DNA from: Capsulimonas corticalis
Lineage (GTDB): Bacteria; Armatimonadota; Armatimonadia; Armatimonadales; Capsulimonadaceae
Assembly (NCBI RefSeq): GCF_003574315.2
Contig: NZ_AP025739.1
Coordinates: forward strand, 1,550,001-1,614,000
Direction of reading: 5' to 3'
DNA length: 64,000 nucleotides
Each line of letters begins with the position of its first letter. Position 1 is the first letter of the stretch. The notes under the pieces are model-generated. The model was not told the DNA's origin, searched no databases, and saw only the letters and a list, made by a program, of their open reading frames with translations. The translations under genes and the position numbers were made by a program. This document shows, one piece after another, positions 48,571 to 51,723 of this stretch.

Positions 48571-49704
48571 TTATTGCAGTTCTAATTTGCCGCCGCTGAC
48601 GGCGTACACCCGCGCCTGTTCCAGAACACCCTTGGAGAAGGGGCGCAGATTCGTACAGCTCAGGAAGGTTTGGGAGCCGGCGCGTTCGGTGAGGTCGAAG
48701 AGGTGGTGGCGGCGGACGTCGTCGAGGTCGGAGAGGACGTCGTCGAGGAGAAGGATGGGGGGCTCGCCGACGAGTTCTTCGATGAGTTGGCGTTCGGCGA
48801 GTTTGAGCGAGAGGGCAACGGTGCGCTGCTGGCCCTGGGAGCCGTAAAGGCGGGCGTCGGAGCCGTTGACGAGGAAGGTGAGGTCGTCGCGCTGCGGGCC
48901 GCGCAGAGTCGTGCCGCGATTCATCTCGTCGTGGGCGACGGCGGCGAGGGCTTCGGCGAAGGCTTCGCGGACTCCGGCTTCGTCCACGGCGCCGTCGAGC
49001 GGGAATGAGGGAACATAAACGACCTGGAGGGAATCGCGGCCGTCGCTGAGAGTCTCGTGGACCTCGGCGGCGAGCAATCCGAGTCGCTCCAGGAAGAGGC
49101 GGCGGCGGTCGATGAGTCGCGCCCCGTGATGCGCCAGCTGGGCGCTCCAGCTAGGCAGGACCTCTCGCAACCCGTCCAAGCTCCCCCGGGCGTCTCTCAG
49201 GTCACGCAGGAGCCGATTACGCTGCTCCAGAGTCTTTCGGTAAGCTCCCAATGCGTGCACATACCGGGGGGATGTCTGGGCGATCTCCAAATCCAGGAAC
49301 TGGCGGCGGATGGCGGGTTCGCCGCGGACGATCTCCAGATCCCCGCTGTCAAAGAGAACCGCGTTCAATTGGCCGATCACTTCGGCGAGCTTCGTATGGC
49401 GGACTCCGTTGACTCTCGCCACTTTTTTGTCCGTCTGAGAAAAGATCATCTCCAGAGCGACATCGCTGTTCTTTTCGCGAGTCACATGCGCCGTGATTCT
49501 CCCGACGGGATCCTCAAAGCGAATCAGCTCGATATCCTTGCCGGCGCGAGTCGACTTGCTGGTCGCCAGAACGTAAATGGACTCCAGCAGATTGCTCTTG
49601 CCCTGAGCGTTCCGTCCCGAGAAAACATTGAGACCGGGACCTGGCTCGATTCTCAGCCTTTCATAATTCCGAAAGCTCTCCAGCTCAAGAGTCTCAATCT
49701 GCAT
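48571..49704 (-). CDS. recF: DNA replication and repair protein RecF
   Basis: A 377-aa SMC-like ATPase, loading RecA at gapped DNA with RecO and RecR. Walker A GRNAQGKSN (30-38) and the signature region YGSQGQQRTVALSLKLAE are visible, followed by Walker B ILLLDDVLSDLD. The N-terminal LETLELESFRNYERL is typical. A TATACT (49761-49756, minus strand) may be its -10. The dnaN gene that usually precedes recF is not here; instead the iteron-rich region separates it from dnaA. Confidence 0.95.
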   Translation of the reverse strand: MQIETLELESFRNYERLRIEPGPGLNVFSGRNAQGKSNLLESIYVLATSKSTRAGKDIELIRFEDPVGRITAHVTREKNSDVALEMIFSQTDKKVARVNGVRHTKLAEVIGQLNAVLFDSGDLEIVRGEPAIRRQFLDLEIAQTSPRYVHALGAYRKTLEQRNRLLRDLRDARGSLDGLREVLPSWSAQLAHHGARLIDRRRLFLERLGLLAAEVHETLSDGRDSLQVVYVPSFPLDGAVDEAGVREAFAEALAAVAHDEMNRGTTLRGPQRDDLTFLVNGSDARLYGSQGQQRTVALSLKLAERQLIEELVGEPPILLLDDVLSDLDDVRRHHLFDLTERAGSQTFLSCTNLRPFSKGVLEQARVYAVSGGKLELQ

Positions 49705-50106
49705 ATGTCCCGATTCCCGCTCCCTAGATTCGCCCCGCCTCAGAGTCTTATTCCCAGTATATAAGAATGATTCTGGATTCGTCTTAGTAATAGAATTGTG
49801 ACTCGGCTGTGACTCCAGAATCGCGAATCGCGGGATTCGACGGATTCACGGCGCGACTCGTAAAGCCCTAGTAGCGAGACTCGAAAACGACTCGGGAATC
49901 GCTATGGAATCGACGAGTCACATTCGAGTCACACAGGAGTCACAGAGTCCGCGAATCCCAGCGAGACTCGTGACTCTCGCCCCCGCGATTCCTTGGAGGA
50001 GTCACAATGGAGGGAGTCACAGGCACGGAGAGTCACAATCGAGTCACAGCGAGTCACGTTTGAATTCTCGCTGACGTTTGAGAAGAGTCGGAGATTCGCC
50101 GCGAGT
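49705..50106. other. Candidate replication origin (oriC) with GAGTCAC iterons
   Basis: The 402-bp gap between dnaA and recF. GAGTCAC occurs on the plus strand at 49915, 49926, 49937, 49999, 50014, 50030, 50041 and 50051, and reversed (GTGACTC) at 49798, 49809 and 49970. Nine of the eleven are followed by A (GAGTCACA). Spacings of 10 or 11 bp recur, placing sites on one face of the helix. No TTATCCACA box is seen. GANTC occurs 33 times between 49689 and 50107. The A+T-rich stretch 49748-49797 could be the unwinding element. Origin function is inferred from position and repeats. Confidence 0.7.
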
Positions 50107-51723
50107 CTACAGCGAATGCTCGATCGCTCCGCGAATCCCGGCGATGATCGCGAGAATCTTGGGATCGGACTCCAGTGAGCCGCGCATGCGGGAATGGGCG
50201 TGGGCGATGGCGGAGTGATTCTTGCAGCCGAAGGTGACGGCGAGCGCGGACATGGGAGTCTTGCTGAGCTCGCGGCACAGGTACATGCAGATCTGCCGCG
50301 CCAGCGCCACATCCTTGTCGCGGCTGCCGCCGTTCAGGATCATTTCCTTGGAGACGCCCATGTGCGCCGCGGCGGCGTCCAGAATGATGTCCACGGCCGC
50401 TCCCGCGCCGCTGCCGGTGTCCGGGCGTCGCAGGGCGACATAATCCGTGGGCGAGGGCGCGAAGCTGGGCATGCGCTCGACAAAATAGGAGCTCAGCACA
50501 TCGCTCGCCAGCTGCTTGGTGATCGGACTCTTCGCCAGCGACGCGTACGCCATCAATTTGATCAGCGCGCCCTCCAGAGCCCGGATGTTGCTCTGGATGA
50601 GACTCGCCATGAAGGCGATGACGTCGTCGGGGATCCGCAGGTTCTCCAGGATCGCCTTGCGCTGGAGGATCGCCATGCGCATTTCCAGCTCCGGCGGGGA
50701 GATATCGGCGATCAGGCCGCATTCGAAGCGGGAGCGCAGGCGCTCGTCCATCAATCGCAGCTCGCGCGGCGAGCGGTCGCTGGTGATCACGATCTGCTTG
50801 TTCTGCTGATGCAGCGTGTTGAAGGTATGGAAAAACTCCTCCTTCGTCTGCTCCTTGGAGGCGATGGTCTGGATGTCGTCGACGAGCCAGACATCGACGT
50901 TGCGATACGCGCGCCGGAACTCCTCCGTGCGCTTGTCGCGCAGCGCCATGACGAAGTGGTTCGTGAAGGTCTCGCCGCTGACATAGGCGACTCGGGCGTG
51001 CGGCAGCGTCGCCCGCACATAGTGGCCGATCGCCTGCATCAAATGCGTCTTGCCGAGGCCGGGGCTGCCGTACAGAAACAGCGGATTGTAAGTGCTGCCC
51101 AGGCCCTGCGCGACAGCCATCGCGCCGGCCTGCGCCAATCGATTTGATTTGCCGACGACGAAGTTATCGAACGTATATTTATCGCTGAGCGCGCTCGACG
51201 TCAATTCCGAGCTGAATGGATTGTTGCTCTCGACGATCCGGGACGATTCCTTTGCGGGCTCGCTGCGGCGGGGCATGACTTCGGGCCGGATGCCGTCGCG
51301 GATCCCGCTGAACGCCGCGCGGTCCGGCGGCGCGCCGGCGCTGGGGGAGGCTGCCTGCTGGAGCGGGAGAGGCTGCTCGCCGAGCAGAGGATGCACTTCG
51401 GACGAAGCGGTCACGAAGCGCAGTTGCAGGCCGGTCGTGTCCAGATGCTGCTCTAAGTAGCCGCGAAGCTCCTGAGAGTACTTTTTTTCCGACCACTCGC
51501 GGGCGAACGCTGAGGGCGCGCCGAACACAATGATCGTCCCATCGAACGACAGCGGCTGGAGCGCCTGGAGAAAGTTCTTGAAGGTGGCTTTGTTATACTT
51601 ATTGGCCAGCGTGCGCAGCGTCCTGTCCCAGGCCTTGCGCAGCGCGATGATGTGCTCATCTTCGCCCAGCACGAGCTGCTGTGTCTGCGCGGGCGGTTCT
51701 TCAGGTTTTGGGTGGCTGCTCAC
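50107..51723 (-). CDS. dnaA: Chromosomal replication initiator DnaA
   Basis: A 538-aa initiator, longer than E. coli DnaA (467) mainly because of a long domain II (about residues 105-180). Domain III carries Walker A GSPGLGKT (219-226), Walker B VWLVDD (278-283) and the arginine finger in RLRSRFE. Domain IV is complete but its DNA-reading residues differ from the norm: the position of E. coli Arg399 is Leu474 (DVALARQ instead of SVARPRQ), and the GGRDHTT signature is GCKNHSA (499-505). The GTG at 51723 is the start. A promoter and a leader hairpin lie upstream. Confidence 0.96.
   Translation of the reverse strand: MSSHPKPEEPPAQTQQLVLGEDEHIIALRKAWDRTLRTLANKYNKATFKNFLQALQPLSFDGTIIVFGAPSAFAREWSEKKYSQELRGYLEQHLDTTGLQLRFVTASSEVHPLLGEQPLPLQQAASPSAGAPPDRAAFSGIRDGIRPEVMPRRSEPAKESSRIVESNNPFSSELTSSALSDKYTFDNFVVGKSNRLAQAGAMAVAQGLGSTYNPLFLYGSPGLGKTHLMQAIGHYVRATLPHARVAYVSGETFTNHFVMALRDKRTEEFRRAYRNVDVWLVDDIQTIASKEQTKEEFFHTFNTLHQQNKQIVITSDRSPRELRLMDERLRSRFECGLIADISPPELEMRMAILQRKAILENLRIPDDVIAFMASLIQSNIRALEGALIKLMAYASLAKSPITKQLASDVLSSYFVERMPSFAPSPTDYVALRRPDTGSGAGAAVDIILDAAAAHMGVSKEMILNGGSRDKDVALARQICMYLCRELSKTPMSALAVTFGCKNHSAIAHAHSRMRGSLESDPKILAIIAGIRGAIEHSL

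Follow-up and report, generated by a model that had tools for sequence, protein, structure and literature searches.

The dnaA-recF gap of Capsulimonas corticalis: a probable chromosomal origin whose DnaA boxes appear to have diverged together with DnaA

Introduction

Boxes that resemble TTATCCACA serve as the key by which replication origins are searched for, and a rule of two mismatches to TTATCCACA has been stated for DnaA boxes (PMC4285127). The gap between dnaA and recF of Capsulimonas corticalis, a soil bacterium of the phylum Armatimonadota, is filled with a repeat, GAGTCACA, that falls outside this rule, and the whole Capsulimonas family would escape the search key. Is this gap the origin, and if so, what are the repeats? 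An earlier reading of the same DNA, the original prediction, had proposed an oriC made of GAGTCAC iterons instead of canonical DnaA boxes. Here, we analysed a window of 64,000 bp (positions 1,550,001-1,614,000) of the genome, which is one contig of 7,645,051 bp, together with related genomes. The position of the origin was computed from the skew, along with the box array, the layout of boxes and trios, their conservation and the co-occurrence of box type and type of the DnaA helix-turn-helix (HTH) along the tree. We hold it to be very probable that the region is the chromosomal oriC of Capsulimonas and that the GAGTCACA repeats are DnaA boxes that have diverged from TTATCCACA together with the HTH of DnaA.

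Results

The dnaA-recF gap has a length of 402 bp (window 49705-50106) and contains GAGTCAC 11 times, eight times on the plus and three times on the minus strand, nine of the sites being extended to GAGTCACA. A recount agreed with the original prediction in number, position, extension and the spacings of 10-11 bp. In chromosome coordinates the array spans 1,599,798-1,600,057. When the gap was shuffled (5000 dinucleotide shuffles), GAGTCAC was present 0.11 times on average and never more than twice, and in the whole 7.645-Mb genome pairs of GAGTCAC at a distance of 30 bp or less were found only in this gap. The absence of a canonical DnaA box from the gap, also claimed before, was borne out: TTWTNCACA has no match with zero mismatches and a single site with one mismatch, TTATTCCCA. 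Clusters of canonical boxes elsewhere, which had been named as evidence against the proposal, were not found either; the genome has 40 copies of TTATCCACA, all of them scattered. In addition, the gap holds 7 further GAGTC and 13 GAATC/GATTC, which had escaped the original prediction. The features of the locus are:

48571-49704, minus strand: recF, on the unwinding side of oriC (Pfam domains, position)
49705-50106, no strand: dnaA-recF intergenic region, 402 bp, almost certainly oriC (skew minimum 1.2 kb off; box array, trio, synteny)
49748-49797, no strand: A+T-rich stretch, candidate unwinding region (sequence; includes the trio, abuts the terminal box)
49785-49793, minus strand: DnaA-trio run CTA-TTA-CTA (minus-strand reading), 4 nt past the terminal GAGTCAC (spacing common to five genomes)
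49798-49804, minus strand: putative recoded DnaA box GAGTCAC(A), trio-proximal (motif match, trio layout)
49809-49815, minus strand: putative recoded DnaA box GAGTCAC(A), other box of the tandem pair next to the trio (motif match, trio layout)
49915-49921, plus strand: putative recoded DnaA box GAGTCAC(A) (motif match)
49926-49932, plus strand: putative recoded DnaA box GAGTCAC(A) (motif match)
49937-49943, plus strand: putative recoded DnaA box GAGTCAC(A) (motif match)
49970-49976, minus strand: putative recoded DnaA box GAGTCAC(G) (motif match)
49999-50005, plus strand: putative recoded DnaA box GAGTCAC(A) (motif match)
50014-50020, plus strand: putative recoded DnaA box GAGTCAC(A) (motif match)
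50030-50036, plus strand: putative recoded DnaA box GAGTCAC(A) (motif match)
50041-50047, plus strand: putative recoded DnaA box GAGTCAC(A) (motif match)
50051-50057, plus strand: putative recoded DnaA box GAGTCAC(G) (motif match)
50107-51723, minus strand: dnaA, sole copy in the genome (Bac_DnaA 228 bits, Bac_DnaA_C 58.6 bits)

That the locus is oriC is almost certain. Over a contiguous 464 kb (1.35-1.814 Mb) the cumulative GC skew has its minimum at 1,598,631 (window 48,631), about 1.2 kb from the array, where a skew switch had been predicted, and the best change point is at 1,598,001. The local skew is weak and noisy, but its extremum is nonetheless at the dnaA-recF locus. Sixty 20-kb samples taken over the chromosome place the minimum of the cumulative skew between 1.53 and 1.66 Mb and its maximum close to 5.1 Mb. 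No match to the E. coli-type dif pattern was found at three mismatches or fewer and, therefore, the terminus is taken from the skew alone; coding-strand bias gave no signal. The GC-skew minimum that marks a DnaA-dependent oriC is present here and likewise in two relatives (G005 and G007), and DnaA is encoded once in the genome, as a complete protein with both AAA+ and HTH domains. The array does not form a cluster of boxes with two or fewer mismatches to TTATCCACA; the locus is an oriC by position and architecture, not a canonical-box oriC. A plasmid-type iteron origin was also considered and rejected, since there is no Rep gene beside the array; the neighbours are dnaA and recF, and the locus is chromosomal. 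dnaN is distant from dnaA, at 7.25 Mb (G000:C1 7,246,307-7,249,318), and a partial second dnaN match is located 1.6 kb beyond it.

All five genomes with GAGTCAC arrays have the same order at the recF-side end: a box, a step of 10-11 bp, a second box, exactly 4 nt and then CTA/TTA triplets. The tandem pair is followed by 3-6 uninterrupted trios; the run in the window is short, with 3 repeats versus 6 in G002 and G006, and in two family members with another box (G003 and G005) the trios are only degenerate. Neither the trio at 49785-49793 nor the register in which the box aligns with TTATCCACA was part of the original prediction. According to the BUS rule, at least three DnaA-trios are found within 16 bp of a box (PMC8287927), and this is what the five genomes have, with 3-6 trios at 4 nt from GAGTCAC and a box of the recoded type. 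G027 has the layout TTTCCAC-ggca-CTACTACTACTTCTA, with a gap of 4 nt before the CTA repeats, and G008 has TTATCCAC-aatgc-CTACTACTACTACTA, with a gap of 5 nt. Since CAC is at the same place in both box types, the most plausible reading of GAGTCACA is that of a recoded DnaA box, which corresponds to positions 2-9 of TTATCCACA. In this register T2 is replaced by G, T4 by G and C5 by T, and many of the sites differ from TTATCCACA at position 1 as well. In 60 GAGTCAC boxes from the five genomes position 9 is A in 92%, and position 1 has only a weak preference. The original prediction is thus borne out in those of its checks that could be computed, with the qualification that the repeats are not a foreign type of iteron: register and BUS layout match those of TTATCCACA in sister lineages.

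Pairs of GAGTCACA are present in 7 of 291 Armatimonadota genomes: 33 pairs in five genomes of the window's family (own genome included), all in the dnaA-recF gap, and one stray pair each in G008 and G095, outside these five. The search for the repeats beside dnaA of related Armatimonadota, suggested earlier, was thus successful in four other family genomes, and beyond the five the GAGTCAC array was found nowhere among the 291. It is kept across three genera, with diverged spacers and in both orientations. GATTCAC takes the place of GAGTCAC in the arrays of the family members G003 and G005. Sister-family genomes of the same order have about 12-15 copies of TTATCCACA at the corresponding place downstream of dnaA, one of them with TTTCCACA in place of TTATCCACA. 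As their own boxes, DnaA of Capsulimonas, of G003 and of a sister-family species would be expected to prefer GAGTCACA, GATTCACA and TTATCCACA, respectively. In G005 the GATTCAC array lies beside recF on contig C37, whose skew minimum is 2.5 kb away; at only 91 kb, this contig allows a local test. The dnaA gene is on a separate contig, C38, with steadily positive skew and no switch at dnaA. Array and skew switch are both by recF, which suggests that the relocation of dnaA left the origin at the array.

Domain IV of DnaA was aligned to the E. coli (1J1V) and B. subtilis (8BTG) proteins, residue numbers were counted along the alignment and the list of base-contacting residues was taken from PMC5043019. 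In Capsulimonas, FGCKNHSAIAHAH replaces the usual FGGRDHTTVxHA. R399, H434 and H439 are kept, whereas P423 is changed to S, R432 to K, D433 to N, T435 to S and L438 to A. In DnaA of the GATTCAC genomes, residue 423 is V or N, residue 432 is V or I and residue 433 is S (HTH of G003 and G005, FGD[VI]SHSAISHAH), and the sister-family proteins that go with TTATCCACA or TTTCCACA have GGRDHTTV, EKDHSTV or GRDHSTV. In the DnaA tree, the GAGTCAC and GATTCAC groups form one clade each and are joined together (support 100/99); the base-contacting residues are changed in the same lineages as the boxes. The changes in HTH and box coincide on few branches, so that about three independent switches underlie the covariation, and few lineages could be scored because the motif search beside dnaA gave no array in most other Armatimonadota families. 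It is likely that TTATCCAC is the oldest state and was followed by a GANTCAC-type box, T4 being changed to G in one branch; the relative order of the derived states GAGTCAC and GATTCAC is one that we infer.

Both derived boxes, GAGTCAC and GATTCAC, contain GANTC, and the difference between them is the free N of GANTCAC. CcrM targets GANTC. In the Capsulimonas gap there are 31-32 such sites where about 1.5 are expected, a roughly 20-fold excess, and 20 of the sites fall outside the boxes. Between G000 and G001, both Capsulimonas, 5 of 86 fixed bases of the non-box sites differ versus 40 of 240 neutral columns (p = 0.01), and the N varies at the neutral rate. In the other genera of the family the GANTC sites are mostly the boxes themselves. 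The genome also has a CcrM-like methyltransferase, as a CcrM-controlled origin would call for: L250 (G000:C1 685,053-686,096) is a full-length adenine methyltransferase with 513 bits to NF050803, below the Caulobacter-tuned cut-off of 830 of that model, and with CcrM (6PBD) as best PDB match. It is a CcrM-like enzyme outside the Alphaproteobacteria, and no restriction gene is evident in its 3.3-kb locus. Of the seven family genomes, all but one, which is 69% complete, encode a CcrM-like enzyme with methylase and RAMA domains; none of 12 sister-family genomes does. However, CcrM-like genes occur in 88 of 291 Armatimonadota, including lineages without GANTC at dnaA, and this makes the contrast between the two families weak evidence on its own. 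The presence of CcrM alone was ruled out as the cause of the boxes, as the enzyme is also found in families with TTTTCAACA- or TTTTCCACA-type boxes. For GcrA only a sub-threshold match was found in the own genome and none in the relatives.

Discussion

The origin of Capsulimonas is ordinary in its architecture; its DnaA box is unusually diverged and conserved in the family, and the reader of the box has changed in step. DnaA binding, strand opening and helicase loading at this oriC are steps that we infer. Domain IV of DnaA would bind the GAGTCACA array and the tandem pair 49798/49809 would seed an oligomer of ATP-DnaA, which would then extend onto the adjacent DnaA-trio strand CTA-TTA-CTA. 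The A+T-rich stretch 49748-49797 would open towards recF and let the helicase load.

Like the BUS of B. subtilis (PMC8287927) and oriC2 of C. difficile (PMC7561715), the origin lies beside dnaA and combines tandem boxes, 16 bp or less from at least three trios, with an adjoining A+T-rich stretch; in G002 and G006 the trio strand has the sequence CACCTACTACTACTA, close to CACCTACTACTATTACTACTATGA of C. difficile (PMC7561715). Unlike in these systems, the box is GAGTCACA and not TTATCCACA, and the downstream gene is recF, with dnaN far off. Diverged boxes are known from other lineages. Epsilonproteobacterial boxes, such as TCATTCACN of H. pylori with the core TTCAC (PMC5043019), have the same change of C to T at position 5 alongside changes in contact residues of helix 5, and their core is shared by GATTCAC of G003 and G005. 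They keep position 4, however, whereas GAGTCAC has T4 changed to G, and in contrast to Epsilonproteobacteria the equivalents of P423 and D433 are replaced in Capsulimonas DnaA. The G-box of Caulobacter crescentus, TGATCCACA (PMC4285127), resembles GAGTCACA in the G at position 2 but keeps T4 and C5 and, therefore, does not itself contain GANTC. The 12-mer of Thermotoga maritima, AAACCTACCACC (PMC4285127), is likewise strongly diverged from TTATCCACA, but it is longer, of other sequence and from another lineage.

Could the repeats serve another purpose? Operators of another regulator of dnaA or recF, or sites for a second origin-binding protein, with DnaA binding elsewhere or weakly, are very unlikely. 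Binding of DnaA to GAGTCACA is a prediction from sequence, and a recF operator, too, would stay with recF and away from dnaA, as the array does in G005; but the array replaces TTATCCACA at the same place, in the same register and at the same trio spacing, the box type tracks the HTH type of DnaA along the tree, the skew switch goes with the array in G005 and the genome has no second cluster of DnaA boxes. It is highly improbable that the array is mainly a platform for methylation with an incidental AC(A) tail. The excess of GANTC in the gap, the CcrM-like enzyme and the conservation of the fixed bases outside the boxes, with a freely varying N, would fit, but not that GANTC sites of the other genera are mostly boxes, that an A follows GAGTCAC so regularly and that the trio spacing goes with the full box. 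Chance or a local repeat expansion without function is hardly conceivable: short-period repeats can expand, and some spacings are a regular 10-11 bp, but 11 copies stand against a shuffle maximum of 2, and conservation of the array in three genera, where spacers have diverged and both orientations occur, refutes a functionless expansion.

We therefore return to the recoded DnaA box and its possible methylation. The GANTC sites outside the boxes might just as well be bound by DnaA with low affinity. With GANTC in every derived box and a CcrM-like methyltransferase encoded in the family, methylation-gated binding of DnaA to the boxes is possible. It is tempting to speculate, although we regard it as rather doubtful, that the box was rewritten to carry a CcrM site and that adenine methylation in the groove read by DnaA gates initiation directly. 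If true, this would parallel Dam/SeqA sequestration, but with the box itself as the methylation site, and the overlap with GANTC together with the enzyme makes such a direct switch testable.

In the Capsulimonas family a start signal and the protein that reads it seem to have changed jointly, a process that is rarely open to view. The family has a graded series of boxes, TTATCCAC, GATTCAC and GAGTCAC, with matching DnaA helices, and this makes the joint change of an essential initiator and a dozen sites directly testable. A second recoding is possible in other Armatimonadota: N at the D433 position of DnaA goes along with C6-to-A boxes in TTTTCAACA-type arrays in four genomes of one family (G035, G048, G059, G021; L023-L026) and with a few TTATCAACA, also with C6 to A, in G023 (L031).

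Some further observations were made. Two more GANTC clusters, with 15-16 sites per 400 bp over a background of about 1.1, are found in coding genes 60-80 kb from oriC (G000 1,517,750-1,518,200 and 1,540,450-1,540,950; L103, L104), one in a zinc-peptidase-like gene and one in cinA, which adjoins parB and recA. In G004 and G006 the Walker A motif of DnaA is split by an intein-like insert that carries a LAGLIDADG_3 domain, GLGK^C...HN^THLMHA (L015, 1-2481, and L016, 1-2493). Thirty IMG/VR stretches (L286-L315) have three close copies of GAGTCACA.
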